From Coniochaeta sp. PMI_546 (lineage: Eukaryota; Ascomycota; Sordariomycetes; Coniochaetales; Coniochaetaceae): a stretch of DNA of 64,000 nucleotides. Positions 4,259-32,476 of the stretch are shown here, piece after piece. Each line of letters begins with the position of its first letter. The first letter of the stretch is position 1. Under the pieces are notes generated by a model. That model worked only from the letters and a program-made list of their open reading frames with translations. It made no database searches and had not been told where the DNA came from. The stretch covers positions 1,497,277 to 1,561,276 of the forward strand of contig MU271143.1 in NCBI GenBank assembly GCA_021432605.1, in the 5' to 3' direction. A program made the translations under genes and the position numbers.

Positions 4259-5313
4259 TTAGAGAATGACGCAGCAGCCACCGTGCTCCCTCCTTTCAAA
4301 CGTCAATAGCGCAGCCCGCGTGGCGGCCTCAAAGACGTCGTCTACTCCCTCGCCGCTGAGACTGGAGCACTCGAGGTACTTGCGGGCGCCGATCTCGCGG
4401 GCTACGGCCTCGCCGTCGTGTTCCGTGACGAAGCGGAGCGACTTCTTGCGCATCTCGTCGATGGCCACAGGATCGCTGCGCAGGTCCTTCTTCAGCCCGA
4501 CCAGGATGATGGGCACGCCGGGGCACTTCTCCGTTGCTTCCTCGATCCACTAAGCACGGCAAAAGGCGGGTCAGAGTTGAGTCCATGTTTCTTGTGATAC
4601 ACAGTGGGTGGCTGCTGCTGCTATGAATGGGGAGGAATCCGGGCAGAGTGAGATTGCGTGGTGTCACAGCTGCGCACGAGGCCAAGACTTCGGCCGAATG
4701 GAGGGAAGCGGAGAGATGGCCAGGTCCCTGGAAAGGAAATGACGACGAACCTTGTGTTTCACGTTATCCAATGAATCCGGCGTGTCGACCGAGAACCCTA
4801 TTAATATGACGTGCGCTTTGGAGTATGCTAGCGGCCGTAACCGCTCGTAGTCTTCTTGCCCGGCTGTGTCCCATAGTGCGAGCTGCACTGATTTGCCGTC
4901 TACTCGGCAGTCTGTCACGTAGTTCTCGAAGACAGTCGGTATCTGAGCGTAGGGACGGAGTTAGAGACGAAAGTGGTTGGCAGAAGAAAAGGAAAAGGAA
5001 GGTCTAGTCCGTTGTTTGGTCTGGTCGACTTACATAGTGCTGTTAAGTAAGAAGTTAGCGACACAATCTTTAGGAGATGGCCAACAACGGAGCTGAACTT
5101 ACTGTCGGAAAGTAGCCAAGCGTGAAGACGCTCAGTAGACTGGTCTTTCCACACGCACCATCTCCAATTATAACGAGTTTTCTGGAGAGAGGGAAGTGTC
5201 AGCGGGACATTCCTACAGAACAGCAGGAAACGGGAGGGCGAGCACGGAGGCAGCTCGTACCTGCGAATGACATTTTCATTCTGTTGAGTAGATCTAGCAG
5301 CTTCCTCTGCCAT
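4259..5313 (-). CDS. rho2: Rho2-type small GTPase with a 6-nt micro-exon
   Basis: Five exons on the minus strand: 5261-5313, 5181-5103, 5039-5034, 4942-4751 and 4549-4259, giving 206 aa with every phase consistent. All introns are GT-AG. Motifs are the P-loop GDGACGKT (residues 24-31), switch [13 protein letters not shown] with Thr49, DTAGQ (71-75) and LKKD in place of the usual NKxD. The C-terminal CCVIL is a CaaX box ending in Leu, predicting geranylgeranylation next to a possible palmitoylation cysteine. The N-terminus [18 protein letters not shown] and the stretch [18 protein letters not shown] match fungal Rho2 rather than Rho1, Rho3 or Rho4. In fungi Rho2 is a plasma-membrane switch acting on wall-integrity signalling and alpha-glucan synthesis. 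The third exon is only CACTAT (His45-Tyr46) and supplies the switch I tyrosine. Confidence 0.93.
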
Positions 5314-7469
5314 GGCTCACAGATAGGCCGGCGCACGCCTGGCTCTAGCCTTGTCGTTGTGTGGCTCTCTCTCCGAGGTAATAGAATATGCCCAGCCAGT
5401 CAGGAGAAGGAGGTTGTCAGATCGCGGTCGGTTACCGTCCGTCAGGGCCTCTGCTAGGCAACAGTATATCAGGGAAGGCGATGAGGATAGGTGTAAATGC
5501 CAATTCAAAGGGTATTCTGTTGGAAGTATATCTAGCAGAGGATACACCGGCAGAAAAGCTGTGCCGCAGATTATACGAGGGGGAAAAGAAATAGTCGATT
5601 GTTTGGTGGACATTCACAAGGAGCTGAGTGAGGTACATGTACCTTGCGGTGCTTGTGCAATGACGGTGGAAGCGCTTACCTAACGCCGATCTTCCTGATG
5701 CCCAAAAGCAGACGATGCCCCACCGTTTGACGAAGGGTTCCTCACAACCTGGAAGCTGATTGACACTTTGGCGGGCTTATGACACGATATGCCAAGCTGG
5801 TATGGAGACAAAAGGAGACAGAAAAGGAGTTTTTGCTGTCATTTTGACAACTAAACGAGGCATTACTACTGTGTCGCGACGACCCGAGGAAGTACACCAC
5901 ACTTCCCTTCGATCCGGCCGCCATGCACGTCGTGTCGAGTCGTGACTGGCAGTGCTGCACAGGCCCTCTGAGGCTATGCTGTGCCGTAAAGCTGCTTCAG
6001 ACTCGTGGAGACGCCGCACGAAAAGCCCGAGGAAGACCGGGAGCTAGAACTCAGCAGAGATGACTGGCAAAGCCGTGGCTGAAGATTCAAGTTGGATCAC
6101 TGCAAGATAAAAGACCTATGACGGATCGTGTGGTCCAAGGATTTGATATCGCTCACTACTGCCACGCGCGCGACCTGGAGCACGATGCGAGGCAATATAA
6201 GGTACAGCACGCCCGTCTCAACAAGTACCTGTGCAGCTCTAAATCAGCAAGATTGCAGCTACCTGATCGTACCACGGTAGCTAGCAATTCATGCCACGTG
6301 CTTACCTCCTGGTATGTACTGTAGCAGTCCGGTGTATAGTATCTGATTCTACCTAAGGTATGTGGTGTGCATGGAGACCGCGCCAAACGTATGATCACAT
6401 AAAATGTTGGGGAGCAAATCATGAATAAGAACTACATACCTTACGTATTGAGCTCGGTTGTAACCGCCCCCGCGTCCACTGGCGCTTGTGGAAGTCTCTG
6501 TCGAGAAAAGAAGCATTGGATTCTGTAATTGAAGCATTGAATCGACTCCTCAAGGACGCGAGTAAGGCGTACGGCAATCAGCCATGGCCAAGTTAAGGTA
6601 AGGTAGCTGAAACATGCCAGTGCAAGTTTACAGACGAGTTTTGAGTGACTTGAAGTCGATGTTTCAGCTGCATCATCTTATCTACCTAGAATGGAAGGGA
6701 CCACCAGCACCAGCACCAGAGTCTCCACATTAGGTGAGGCTGAGCCACGTGACTGCGAGAAGGTAGCTCCGCTGTTGGGACTCAACTTCACTGGAGTGCG
6801 CCACCGCTTCTTCCGCCAATCGCGTTGCTCGTTCAGCCACAGTTGCGGTACGAAATACATGTCCAACGACGAAACTTCCGCTGCCCACCTGGATCGGAAC
6901 ACTGACTAGATTGGAGACACGCTCCAGAAACCACCAAGTTGCTTCTCGCCGCGAAGCAATCTTGATGCACATTGCTATATCAAATTACGACCATTCGTTT
7001 CCAAATTATTAACCGATCGTCTTGCTACCCCCCATCTAGGTCTGGACGACGCCACCGTCATACATCTGGTCACAATCAGCGACCGGCCTCATCCACGGCG
7101 GCTTCACCCCTCGTTTCGTCTTCTCGCAGCTCCCATCCCAGTGAGTCCGGCCCCCATATTTAAACCCTCTTCTCGACTCCTGCTGTTATAACGAGAGTCT
7201 TCAACACAGAGGTCCCCTCTATGGTATTACTCTTGTCGCCATTCTGTCTGCGTCGGAGCCCTCGCACTGCAGCTTCACCTTCCCGTCCCCTTGTCATCCC
7301 CGCTCATTACCCTGGTACTTCACTTTCGGTCACTTATCTTGCCTTTTCAAACTTCTAACACGACTTCCACCCCAATTTAGGACGCGCTTCCTCGGCTTGA
7401 GACTCAGGCCTACGTCGTTCCTACATGAGCTCACACCTGCCATAATAAGCAGGCCATACATCACTAGAA
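5314..7469. other. divergent promoter region rho2 / NST1
   Basis: This 2.2-kb gap separates two divergent genes. CACGTG E-box palindromes lie at 6295-6300 and 6746-6751. An aaggtaaggta motif, part of a dispersed family in this window, occurs near 6595-6605. The last 300 bp before NST1 are pyrimidine-rich, as in a long 5' leader. I find no supported gene. Confidence 0.5.
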
Positions 7470-10400
7470 ATGGGCAACCACCGACAGCAGCCGCCGGCAG
7501 GAGCAGCGCATCCACCTCCTGCTTCGCCCACGGCCAAGGCAACGTCCAAGTACACCAATAAGGATGGTTCAAAGTTCATCACCGTACCGAAAGCCAATAG
7601 CTCGACCACAGACTCCGCCCAGCCCTCTCCCTCGCTGGATCCGCCCGACAGCAAGACTGCCGCACAGTCCGAACAGGCCGGTCCAGGTTCTCCTGCTTCA
7701 GTACAACCGGTGAACCAGAAGAAGCAAAAGCGCCGCGAGAAGGAGAGAGCCAAGGCCCTAGCTAAGCAAGGACTCAATAAGCCCGATCCTCCGAGCCCGA
7801 CCGATTCCGCGGCTCCGAGCCATGACCGACGGTCCTTGGATGTCGAGCACGATTTCAGCGAGGCCGAAGACGAGCACGACCACCACCCTCCACAAGAGAA
7901 CGGAACCGGGACGGAGGAGCCCACGAAGTCTAAGAAGGCCAAGAAAAATAAGAAGAAGAAGGCTGCTGCCGCCAGTGTCGATGATACTCATAGCCATAAT
8001 GATTATCACGACCACCATGACCATCACGACCACATGCTCCATCACGAACGTAGCCATAACCACGCTCCACACCCTCCCCCCGCACATCGCGGGTCAGGCA
8101 TATCCAAGGAGAAGATCTGGAATACCAGCTCGCAAGAGGAACGCCAGCGGATCAAGGACTTCTGGCTTGGTCTGGGCGAGGACGAGCGAAAGTCACTCGT
8201 CAAGGTGGAGAAGGATGCCGTGCTGAAGAAGATGAAGGAGCAACAGAAGCATACCTGCAGTTGCACCGTCTGCGGTAGGAAGCGAACCGCCATCGAGGAA
8301 GAGCTGGAAGGTCTTTATGATGCATATTATGAGGAACTAGAGCAGTACGCACACCACCCAAATCAAAACGGCGAGGGACCTCCCATGATGGGATCTCCGA
8401 AGCGCTTTGGGAACAGGGTGGGGAGCTCGAGAGGGCCACCGTCCAACTACCCACATCAACCATCACATGGGCGAATAGTGGAACACGTTAGTGACGACGA
8501 GGATGACGAGGGCGAAGAGTACGAGAGCGAAGAGGAACCCGACGAGGACGACGGCTATGATGAAGACGAGCCTCCCGAGGTGAACAACCGCAACGACTAC
8601 GCCTCTGATTTCTTCGCCTTTGGCAACAGCCTGACCGTGCAGGGTAGGGATAGCCTTCCTATTCTTCCATCTTTTCTGCAGAGTTACCCTGCAAATGTTC
8701 ATGGCTCATCGTCTTTAGGCGGAATCCTGACTGTTGCCGACGACCTGCTGAAGAACGACGGCAGAAAGTTCATCGAAATGATGGAACAACTGGCCGAGCG
8801 ACGTATGGCACGCGAAGAGGACGCCAAAGAGGCATATTCACGCAACTATGGGCACACCAATGGCGGCGGCTACGGGCACAGCCATCTCCCACCAGAGGAA
8901 GAAGAGTATGAAGAGGATGACGAAGAGTTCGAGGAAGACGACGAAGAAGAATATGATTCTCAGGAAGAAGAGGTACCAGATCTCGCAAAACGAAATATTG
9001 TGGATGAGTCCTCGACTAACATTGCCCACCAGCAGGATGCGATGACTGAAGAGCAACGGATGGAAGAAGGGCGCAGGATGTTCCAGATCTTCGCAGCCAG
9101 GATGTTTGAGCAGAGGGTCCTAACGGCCTACCGCGAAAAGGTTGCCAAGGAGCGCCAGCAAAAGCTTATCGAAGAGCTTGAAGTCGAGGAAAGGACCAAG
9201 GATCAACGCAAAGCGAAAAAGGCCAAGGAAGCGCAGAAGCGCAAAGACAAGGCTGCGAAGAAGAAGGAAGCTCTTGCAGAGGAAAAGGCACGCAAGGAGG
9301 CTGAGAAAGCGGCCGAAGAAGAGGCTCGTCGGGCGGAAGAGGCGCGGAAGGCCGAAGAACAACGGCAGAAGGCCGAAGAGAAGCGGAAGAAGAAGGAGGC
9401 CCAGAGGAAGGCGGAGGAGGAAGAACGGTTGCGCAAGGAAGCAGAACGCCAACGGCAGAAGGAGAAGCAGGCCGAGCAGGAACGCAAAGCGCGCGAGGCC
9501 AAGGAGAAGGAGAAGAAGGCCAAGGAAGAGGCCGCACGGCAAAAAGAGAAGGAGGCCAAGGAACGAAAGGAGCTTGAGATGCGGGAGCGCAAGGAACAGC
9601 AGGAGCGCGAGAAGAAGGAACGGGAAGCCAAGAACCAAGCGGACCGTGAGGCAAAGGAGAAGCTGGCCCAGGCACAGCAGAAGGCGCTCCAAAATGCCCC
9701 AAAGCAGGCTGACCCTGCTGTCCACAAGCCGAATGCTGCTCTGCCAACAGCCACGCCGATCACGTTGGTGAAGCGTCCAGCGCAGCATACGATACCCACC
9801 GCAGTACCAGCATTACCACAGCAGCCGGCTACCTCGACTCCAGCAGTGGCATCCCCTCAAATCGCCATTGCGACTCCAGCTATACCTAAGGCGCCGCTCA
9901 ATATGCGCAATCGACAGCCGTCTCAGCAAGAGAGCACTTCTGGTAGTTCTCAGGCTGCATCGCAGTCCGAGTCCAACCTCAGCCAGGCTCCTTCACCTCA
10001 TCCACTGACTCCTTCACATACGAGCCCTGGTCCCCTCGGTCCTGCCAGCAAGATGGGAGCGCAGCACCCATCACAAGGGGCGTCGCCTATGAATATTCCG
10101 ACCAAGACGACCACGGCTCCGCATTTTGGCGGCTTCAGCTCGTCGCCCATGATGTCCTTTGGCCAAGCACCTCCAGGTATGCATCCGATACCGCCTCCTG
10201 GATTCGGGTCACCTATGCATCAGAATCCTGCTTTCGCACCTAACCCGTTCGCGCCGTTTGGCAGCCCTGGCATGGTCGGACTGCCTGGCGGCATCAGTCG
10301 CCCGATTGCTGGACGACCTTTTGCACATCCCACTCCCCCCCCAGGCTTCAACAATCAGGCACTTGATTCGCAGTTCTCCGGGATGGGCCAAGGATTTCAG

Positions 10401-11273
10401 GCCGGGCCTCCGAGAGATAGCATGCCATTGCACAACCGGCAAGGATCTATAGGTGTTGATCATCAAAGTCCATCTATGTCGTCTACCCAACCAATAGGCA
10501 AGCCAATGCCGATAGGACGGCCTCCGAGCGTGGCTCCCGGTCAACGCCCGGCTGCCTCGCTGCCGAATGCTGGTTGGGGCGGCAACGTCATCGAGAGTCA
10601 GCATCTGGGAAGCAGCGCGCTGCTAGCGGACTCTGTGGAAGCCGCGGAGGAGATGCCCCCTTCAGCCCGTCGTAACACCTCTGTACATGTCCCCGGCATG
10701 CAATTTCCCAACATGTTCAACATGGACCCCATGTTCAATAATCCTTGGGGACCGCAACCGGTCGGACAGCAGGGGTTTTACGGTAGTCCGCCTCCCCCTG
10801 GTTTCGCAGGTCAACACCAGTCTGCCCCATGGGGTACACCCGGCCAAACGTCGTCAGCTTTCGGGTTACAGAACGGGCTGGCCCGACAGGGCCTGCCACG
10901 GTCAGTCACAATCAGGCAGCTACTCTGCCGAGCGTGTAAAGAGCTCGTGGAATCGCCAAACACGCCTTCCCAAGACCAGCTGGATAATGGCTATGTCTCC
11001 CTGAAAGCAGTCAAGAGCCGTGTGGACCAGCTTGAACCGACGACGGACAAGGAGCTGTTGGAGATCTGCGACACATTGGGCAACTCGGCCAACGGAGGCG
11101 GCAGCTTCGAAACGCGGACGGCGTCGAACCAGATCTTCGTCCGATGGATGCCGGAGCCGACGGGCGTGGATGGTCATCCACTGCAGCGGGCCATAGGTGC
11201 GCCCGGAGAGATTCGCAGTCCCGCCGTCGGGTCGCGCGTCCTTTCCTCTGGCAACGGGCTGGGAGGGAACTAG
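7470..11273 (+). CDS. NST1: stress response protein NST1
   Basis: Uninterrupted 1,267-aa frame. The N-terminus (YTNKDGSKFITVPK) and the overall layout match the filamentous-fungal NST1 family. In order: a disordered Ser/Pro/Gln region; a lysine cluster KKAKKNKKKK near 155; a His/Asp-rich run at about 171-195; a cysteine cluster CSCTVCGRKR at about 262-271; acidic tracts at about 340-372 and 476-502; a long Lys/Glu/Arg/Ala helix or coiled coil at about 552-740; a Pro/Gln/Met-rich region to about 1137; and a short folded C-terminal segment (LCRACKELV, about 1140-1237). In yeast, Nst1 is a negative regulator of salt tolerance that interacts with the splicing factor Msl1. Those functions are taken from yeast. 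The His run and the CxC-xxC cluster could bind metal, which is inference. Family members are of similar length (about 1,200 aa). Confidence 0.93.
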   Translation: MGNHRQQPPAGAAHPPPASPTAKATSKYTNKDGSKFITVPKANSSTTDSAQPSPSLDPPDSKTAAQSEQAGPGSPASVQPVNQKKQKRREKERAKALAKQGLNKPDPPSPTDSAAPSHDRRSLDVEHDFSEAEDEHDHHPPQENGTGTEEPTKSKKAKKNKKKKAAAASVDDTHSHNDYHDHHDHHDHMLHHERSHNHAPHPPPAHRGSGISKEKIWNTSSQEERQRIKDFWLGLGEDERKSLVKVEKDAVLKKMKEQQKHTCSCTVCGRKRTAIEEELEGLYDAYYEELEQYAHHPNQNGEGPPMMGSPKRFGNRVGSSRGPPSNYPHQPSHGRIVEHVSDDEDDEGEEYESEEEPDEDDGYDEDEPPEVNNRNDYASDFFAFGNSLTVQGRDSLPILPSFLQSYPANVHGSSSLGGILTVADDLLKNDGRKFIEMMEQLAERRMAREEDAKEAYSRNYGHTNGGGYGHSHLPPEEEEYEEDDEEFEEDDEEEYDSQEEEVPDLAKRNIVDESSTNIAHQQDAMTEEQRMEEGRRMFQIFAARMFEQRVLTAYREKVAKERQQKLIEELEVEERTKDQRKAKKAKEAQKRKDKAAKKKEALAEEKARKEAEKAAEEEARRAEEARKAEEQRQKAEEKRKKKEAQRKAEEEERLRKEAERQRQKEKQAEQERKAREAKEKEKKAKEEAARQKEKEAKERKELEMRERKEQQEREKKEREAKNQADREAKEKLAQAQQKALQNAPKQADPAVHKPNAALPTATPITLVKRPAQHTIPTAVPALPQQPATSTPAVASPQIAIATPAIPKAPLNMRNRQPSQQESTSGSSQAASQSESNLSQAPSPHPLTPSHTSPGPLGPASKMGAQHPSQGASPMNIPTKTTTAPHFGGFSSSPMMSFGQAPPGMHPIPPPGFGSPMHQNPAFAPNPFAPFGSPGMVGLPGGISRPIAGRPFAHPTPPPGFNNQALDSQFSGMGQGFQAGPPRDSMPLHNRQGSIGVDHQSPSMSSTQPIGKPMPIGRPPSVAPGQRPAASLPNAGWGGNVIESQHLGSSALLADSVEAAEEMPPSARRNTSVHVPGMQFPNMFNMDPMFNNPWGPQPVGQQGFYGSPPPPGFAGQHQSAPWGTPGQTSSAFGLQNGLARQGLPRSVTIRQLLCRACKELVESPNTPSQDQLDNGYVSLKAVKSRVDQLEPTTDKELLEICDTLGNSANGGGSFETRTASNQIFVRWMPEPTGVDGHPLQRAIGAPGEIRSPAVGSRVLSSGNGLGGN

Positions 11274-31356: not shown

Positions 31357-32476
31357 ATGTCGTCCCTCGAGGCAAAGATAGTCGTGCTCGGCTCCCAGGG
31401 TGTCGGCAAGACGTCGCTGGTGCAGCGATACTGCAAGGGATCCTTCAACCCGTCGCAGATCACGTCGACCGTCGGCGCCAGCTTCATGGCCAAGCGCGTT
31501 GTCGACAGCGACACAGACACCGTCGTTCGACTTCAAATATGGGACACAGGCACGTTACCTCTACTCTACCTCCCTGGTTCATCACCGACATAGTATATGC
31601 TGACAAGCGCGTACCAAAACAGCCGGTCAAGAACGCTTCCGCTCGATATCACGCCTCTACTACCGCGGCGCCAACGCCTGTATCCTCTGCTACAGCATAA
31701 CCGACGCCCAGTCCTTCGCCGAGATGGGCATGTGGCTGACTGAGCTCCGCCGCAATCTTCCCTCGGACATCGTCCTCCACGTCGTCGGTACGAAAGCCGA
31801 CATCGTCGCGCGCGAGCCTTCCAAGCGCGAAGTCCCCTTCGAGCGCTGCATCGCCTACGTCGCCGAGAACCTGGCACCCGGGATGGGATCTACACCGCCG
31901 CCTACCGCCGCCACGCCGATGGGCATGCCGGGATACCATGGCGGTGACCCGCACCACCACAACGTCCGAGGCGGTGTCGGTATGAGCGGAGGGTCTGCCG
32001 GGTCCGCGGGAATAGACCCGCAGAGCACCGAGCCAAAGAGTCCGAGCAGTAAGCGCAGCTCGGGCTTCTGGGGCCAGGAGGTCGGTTGGGACGCGTGCCA
32101 CGAGATATCGGCCGAGAGCGGCGAGGGTGTCGAGGAGGTGTTCAGGGTGGTGACGAGGAAGCTGGTCGAGCAGAACCGGAAGATGCAGCAGGCTCTGCTG
32201 GCTGCCACGGCCACCCCGGGTGTGACGCCTTTCCCCTATGCGGAGCTGGGAGGGGCCACGCCCGGCGGAGCTGGCGAGGCCCAGGGGTATTTTGACGGGG
32301 CGCACTATCGCCCTGGCGGCAGTTTTAGGGTCGGACGAGATAGGAGGAGTTGGCTCTTCTCACCCGGCTTCAGCATTCCGACGCCTGGGAACCCCGGTGT
32401 TGCGGTCGACGCCCCCACTGGCGAGCGGGTGGATGAGAGGACTGGGCCTCGGAGGGATAGGAGGAGCTGTTGCTAG
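31357..32476 (+). CDS. Rab-family small GTPase with long insertion and C-terminal extension
   Basis: Two exons, 31357-31549 and 31623-32476; 348 aa. The intron has a GC donor (ACAG|GCACGT), fixed by the conserved WDT-AGQERF junction. Motifs: P-loop GSQGVGKTS, switch I TSTVGASF, WDTAGQERFRS, GTKAD (G4) and EISAESG (G5). The C-terminus ends RRDRRSCC, a double-cysteine signal for geranylgeranylation. The YYRGANACILCYSITD stretch places it near Rab5/Rab21/22-like proteins. A low-complexity insert of roughly 65 residues (Gly, His, Pro, Ser) lies between G4 and G5. A disordered tail of about 75 residues precedes the CC. Typical Rabs are 200-220 aa. I believe this is a fungal-specific Rab group in endomembrane traffic but cannot name the subgroup. 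Confidence 0.88.

Follow-up and report, generated by a model that had tools for sequence, protein, structure and literature searches.

The Rho2-type GTPase gene of Coniochaeta sp. PMI_546 most likely contains a six-nucleotide coding exon, CACTAT, which would be included constitutively and thereby provide the His-Tyr dipeptide of switch I. We put the probability that CACTAT is a real, constitutively included coding micro-exon at roughly 0.83. The gene lies on the minus strand of the window, that is, of the whole 64,000-nt stretch of DNA analysed here, and extends from an ATG at 5313 to a stop codon ending at 4259. A five-exon model that includes CACTAT yields a 206-aa Rho protein, free of stops and with the C-terminus CCVIL. 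Its exons and introns, in window coordinates, are as follows:

5261-5313, minus strand: Rho2 exon 1, 53 nt, start codon at 5313
5182-5260, minus strand: Rho2 intron 1, 79 nt, phase 2, GTACGA donor, CTGAC branch motif
5103-5181, minus strand: Rho2 exon 2, 79 nt, from the P-loop GDGACGKT to ...GYFPT
5040-5102, minus strand: Rho2 intron 2, 63 nt, phase 0, GTAAGT donor, CTAAC branch motif
5034-5039, minus strand: Rho2 micro-exon CACTAT, 6 nt, coding for His-Tyr of switch I
4943-5033, minus strand: Rho2 intron 3, 91 nt, phase 0, GTAAGT donor, CTAAC branch motif
4751-4942, minus strand: Rho2 exon 4, 192 nt, IPTVFENY ... DTAGQE ... NVKHK
4550-4750, minus strand: Rho2 intron 4, 201 nt, phase 0, GTTCGT donor, position K|W
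4259-4549, minus strand: Rho2 exon 5, 291 nt including the stop codon, WIEEATEK ... CCVIL

To judge from its matches, the gene at 5313-4259 is a Rho-family GTPase, as the first-pass annotation of this DNA had proposed. The predicted protein scores 158.9 bits against Pfam Ras (PF00071), far above the curated cut-off of 21.6, which places it within the Ras fold, and the best 60 of the 811 solved sequences that it matches are Rho1, RhoA/B/C or Rac, some of them in fusion chains. Rho1 chain 6jik_A aligns without a gap with Rho2 residues 16-204. The name Rho2 is a putative assignment, given by elimination, because genes resembling Rho1, Rho3, Rho4, Cdc42 and Rac exist separately in the genome, and by the CCVIL end. 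A single locus in the genome matches this Rho2 at 88% or more and the runner-up reaches 68%, so that there is no second gene copy that could supply an intact version.

The window also holds a second Ras-superfamily gene at 31357-32100 on the plus strand, which, read by eye, is Rab-like (GSQGVGKTSLV, DTAGQERFRSISRLYYRG); what looks like a GC-AG intron interrupts its DTAG codons, and a stretch rich in Gly and His follows its GTKAD region. Adjoining Rho2 is a long open frame on the plus strand (7449-11273, 1274 aa) with many charged repeats, presumably resembling fungal NST1-type proteins.

The case for the micro-exon begins with a gap in the protein. Exon 2 ends with ...GYFPT and exon 4 starts with IPTVFENY, while Rho1 chains read FPEVYVPTVFENY in this region and align gap-free with the His-Tyr form, indicating that the protein is two residues short at the junction of exons 2 and 4. 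We enumerated the splicings within the stretch from the start of exon 2 to the end of exon 4, allowing GT or GC donors, AG acceptors, introns of at least 35 nt and an internal exon of at most 60 nt. A single one among the 6,844 combinations (462 with one intron, 6,382 with two) restores switch I, and it is the one proposed: donor at 5102, exon 5039-5034, donor at 5033 and exon 4 from 4942. No other junction in this enumeration supplies the residues, which bears out the earlier statement that only this splicing restores switch I, and the micro-exon is thus needed for rebuilding the conserved protein. Four one-intron splicings remain open into VFENYV, none of them with the tyrosine in place.

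Micro-exons are taken here as coding exons of at most 30 nt, and CACTAT has a full set of splice signals on either side. On the minus strand, ...CTAACTTCTTACTTAACAG stands directly upstream of 5039-5034 and GTAAGT directly downstream. Introns 2 and 3 each have a CTAAC motif, a CAG acceptor and a GTAAGT donor, with 15 nt of intron following the branch adenine of CTAAC in intron 2 and 18 nt in intron 3. The exon, its frame, its neighbours, the intron lengths of 63 and 91 nt and the presence of CTAAC in both introns all agree with what the first-pass annotation had described. Its description of the donor as a "perfect GTAAGT" holds for the intronic half, and the two donors flanking the micro-exon are the only GTAAGT donors among 24 Ras-superfamily introns of the genome. 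It does not hold for the donor as a whole: the micro-exon ends in TAT rather than CAG, and because the exon ends at the two flanking donors lack CAG, these donors come out in the middle of the ranking by predicted U1 pairing (13th and 16th of the 24). We therefore rejected the idea that these donors are unusually strong in whole-donor U1 pairing energy. The set of 24 was obtained from 29 introns (25 from paralogs and four from Rho2) by dropping five alignment artefacts, namely two in RhoX, two in L005 and one GC-donor call in Rho3.

Such an arrangement is hardly expected by chance. When the 160-nt interval was shuffled 50,000 times with dinucleotides preserved, 10 shuffles gave a 6-nt exon coding for His-Tyr and 242 gave any 6-nt exon with tyrosine as its second residue; when GTAAGT was demanded in addition to the latter, one shuffle was left, and none when the branch motif was demanded as well. 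The pattern AG-N6-GTAAGT occurs a single time over the two strands of the 64-kb window, at the micro-exon, and CTAAC-N8-20-AGCACTATGTAAGT occurs once in the 33.5-Mb genome. On the strength of enumeration and shuffles we rejected a chance artefact as the source of the CACTAT exon.

Splice-aware alignment, an independent though less powerful test, gave an answer that depended on its penalties. With Rho1, Rho4, Cdc42 and Rac of the same genome as queries, the micro-exon was picked in 12 of 12 runs (intron penalty 5, 10 or 15, gap cost 10). A further 18 runs used Rho1 and Rho3 as queries, with intron penalties of 15-30 and gap costs of 4-10; in 16 of the 18 settings the intron penalty was higher or the gap cheaper than before. 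Two of these runs picked the micro-exon, 12 skipped it and four used a GC donor that adds Val-Ser-Ser. Given this dependence (12/12 versus 2/18), we did not accept splice-aware alignment as sole proof of the exon. The loss of the micro-exon in 16 of the 18 settings indicates how easily annotation programs could lose CACTAT, and agrees with the earlier remark that gene callers commonly miss such exons, as is published for plants (PMC8831610) and fungi (PMC12940212). CACTAT illustrates well how, even in a conserved signalling gene, an exon is likely to escape automatic annotation. Missing it results in a plausible-looking model, 204 aa long with an open frame, that lacks the switch I tyrosine, and such a model would mislead structure predictions, the design of mutants and evolutionary comparisons of Rho2.

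The micro-exon supplies the switch I tyrosine, as the first reading had claimed, and we take this residue to be the equivalent of RhoA Tyr34. In simulations, RhoA Tyr34 hydrogen-bonds the γ-phosphate of GTP (PMC5379185). A tyrosine aligns at the His-Tyr site without a gap in five paralogs of the genome (Rho1, Rho3, Rho4, Cdc42 and Rac) and in four bacterial Rho-like proteins. The exception is a divergent Rho1-like paralog with Trp for Tyr at the equivalent place; RhoX was left out of this comparison, since its switch I could not be reconstructed. For these two reasons the switch I tyrosine is not absolute in this genome. Deleting His-Tyr lowers the score against Pfam Ras from 158.9 to 148.3 bits (-10.6), against TIGR00231 from 105.2 to 96.5 bits (-8.7) and against Rho1 chain 6jik_A from 263.5 to 255.7 bits (-7.8), drops that are supporting only, as part of each is the cost of any two-residue gap. 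The micro-exon is a multiple of three in length, and the computed form lacking it stays in frame over 204 aa with no premature stop and loses His-Tyr, as foreseen. If intron 2 or intron 3 is kept in the transcript, the protein breaks off at 54 or 55 aa.

The Rho1-like paralog (G000:C17:284142-284535, minus strand, and upstream, L014:1000-2050) departs from the family at further sites. Its P-loop, GDCVGKT as compared to GDGACGKT, is one residue shorter, Trp occupies the place of Tyr34 (EVWFPTTF), and SGMDDYD stands for AGQEDYD, the glutamine of the motif being gone. It may be a GTPase that has lost GTP hydrolysis, or else a gene copy in decay.

One scan of viral contigs gave no relative, and one of genome contigs gave four homologs only, all bacterial. 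These Rho/Rac-like GTPases (L029:1106-1621, L030:3001-3519, L031:3001-3498 and L032:2135-2647) lie on MAG contigs assigned to Zetaproteobacteria (two), Maricaulis (one) and Robiginitomaculum (one), are intronless over the matched stretch and 43-49% identical to Rho2, and have switch I as FPGEYIPTVFDNY in three cases and FPTEYVPTVFDN in one. They are either bacterial Rho homologs or binning contamination.

Comparison of intron positions among the paralogs suggests how the micro-exon came about. Intron 2 lies after FPT in phase 0, and a phase-0 intron at this site is found in Rho1 (FPE|VY), Rho1-like (FPE|VW) and Rho4 (FPE|KY), that is, in three of six reconstructed paralogs; it is absent from Rho3, Cdc42 and Rac. 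The position of intron 4 (K|W) is also common to Rho1, Rho1-like and Rho4. Intron 3 (HY|IPT) occurs in none of the six; RhoX, a seventh candidate, aligned too poorly and was excluded from the intron comparison. With intron 2 in three of the six and intron 3 in none, the pattern is most simply explained if intron 2 is old and intron 3 came later: the micro-exon probably arose by the gain of intron 3, 6 nt downstream of the older intron that Rho2 has in common with Rho1 and Rho4. Loss of intron 3 from the paralogs is also possible and would need more events. Either intron matches only itself in a genome search at E <= 1, a limited first look, and with no near-identical copies found in that search, an introner-like origin of intron 2 or 3 was rejected. 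Aorho2 of Arthrobotrys oligospora is listed with 6 introns in a table that does not give their positions (PMC8754127). The paralog comparison points to a simple route to such exons, the insertion of a new intron near an old one where the coding sequence is not free to vary. Once formed, the micro-exon would have been kept because a Rho2 lacking His-Tyr would be deprived of the switch I tyrosine, the residue in contact with the γ-phosphate of GTP.

How could an exon of six nucleotides be spliced? Introns 2 and 3 are short, and each would be recognised by pairing of its own sites across the intron, i.e. by intron definition. The small size of ascomycete introns has been argued to imply this mode (PMC6616335), and a review puts forward Prp40 as a factor that may secure intron definition when an exon is too short to be defined as such (PMC8624252). 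The two introns would probably be removed one after the other, because the factors for the acceptor and the donor could not sit together on 6 nt; whichever intron is removed, the other would be left with an ordinary site.

The first-pass annotation had further suggested that inclusion of the exon could tune GTPase activity. This found no support, because the switch I tyrosine is lost on skipping and the splice sites are in keeping with intron definition of the ordinary kind; all that the sequence offers in its favour is a length that is a multiple of three and a weak 9-bp complementarity between the introns. We consider it unlikely that CACTAT is a regulated cassette exon, skipped under certain conditions to produce a 204-aa Rho2 that lacks the tyrosine and would be inactive or interfering. 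Skipping would keep the frame, and the 160-nt intron it would remove, from the GTAAGT donor of intron 2 to the acceptor of intron 3, falls inside the 53-308 nt spanned by the 24 introns; the complementarity could bring these sites together. Precedents among fungi are Xlr2 of Trichoderma virens (PMC11121469) and rtnA (PMC6616335), whose exon II measures 15 nt in Aspergillus niger and 33 nt in Neurospora crassa, is skipped in some transcripts of both species and is missing from 3 of 13 ESTs of N. crassa. The published background is mixed: skipped exons are the most abundant class in A. oligospora, with ~37% of events (PMC8754127), but amount to only four cases in Fusarium graminearum, compared to 231 alternatively spliced genes (PMC3577648), and exon skipping was comparatively low in fungi in a wide survey (PMC6142364).

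The complementarity itself maps to one feature:

4996-5103, minus strand: possible intron 2 : intron 3 helix, TCCGTTGTT with AACAACGGA as core; a weak lead

Its arms, 5083-5103 and 4996-5016, are 76% complementary, with a perfect core of 9 bp, and would hold the micro-exon in the loop. Inter-intron complementarity of 9 bp was matched by 54 of 4,000 shuffles with Watson-Crick pairs and by 390 of 4,000 when G-U pairs were allowed, a borderline result that is no longer significant in the latter case, and RNA folding of the micro-exon region was no better than that of shuffles (z -0.06). We regard it as very improbable that this helix loops out CACTAT and so determines how much Rho2 is made without the His-Tyr of switch I, in which case the fungus would control a GTPase by using splicing to delete its γ-phosphate-contacting tyrosine. 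If skipping were regulated after all, Rho2 would be a GTPase switched by splicing.

Skipping might also be mere noise, with a small share of transcripts lacking the exon and giving rise to defective or unstable protein without function. The average U1 pairing of the donors would fit this, as would the statement, from work on plant micro-exons, that splicing complexes are unable to form on the two sites of a micro-exon simultaneously (PMC8831610). At low levels, however, such skipping is compatible with constitutive inclusion, and as an explanation in its own right it seems a slender prospect. That there is no exon at all, the mRNA joining exon 2 to exon 4 or using a GC donor at 5093 (+Val-Ser-Ser) with an altered switch I, is scarcely credible: both junctions are among the four one-intron splicings open into VFENYV, and one or the other was preferred in 16 of 18 aligner settings, but both forms lack the tyrosine of five paralogs and of the Rho1 chains in the alignments listed, GCTCCG is a poor donor, and the occurrence of AG-CACTAT-GTAAGT with a branch motif, giving exactly the missing residues, would have to be a coincidence.

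Among known systems, work on micro-exons and intron definition in fission yeast (Romfo 2000, as cited in PMC11121469 and PMC6616335) reportedly has short introns recognised across the intron, as we propose for Rho2, in which case the size of the exon should matter little. No micro-exon in Rho2 was found among the literature matches listed. A close parallel is found in the CYP621A P450 genes of Fusarium, which have a 1-nt exon with ortholog and transcript support (PMC12940212). As in Rho2, an ultra-short ascomycete exon lies inside a strictly conserved motif, was inferred from the protein and had been missed by annotation; it differs in being 1 nt rather than 6 nt long and in that its omission breaks the frame, and the Rho2 exon is predicted from genomic sequence. 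In that paper, exons coding for 2-10 residues are described as occurring in fungi, and ultra-short exons are suggested to preserve motifs interrupted by introns. Xlr2 of T. virens is likewise a regulator gene of a filamentous ascomycete with a micro-exon, but a switch-like one, whose inclusion or skipping is reported to follow glucose (PMC11121469), whereas the Rho2 exon is more likely constitutive. Exon II of rtnA in A. niger, at 15 nt, shares with CACTAT a short in-frame design and short introns; its skipping proceeds via a stwintron, while the Rho2 region is explained by two simple introns (PMC6616335). In plants, 2,398 micro-exons of at most 15 nt were identified with RNA-seq, and these resemble the Rho2 exon in lying within coding sequence and in often being unannotated, and are evolutionarily conserved in plants (PMC8831610). 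With fungal micro-exons down to 1 nt already published, CACTAT of Rho2 would add another case to the list.
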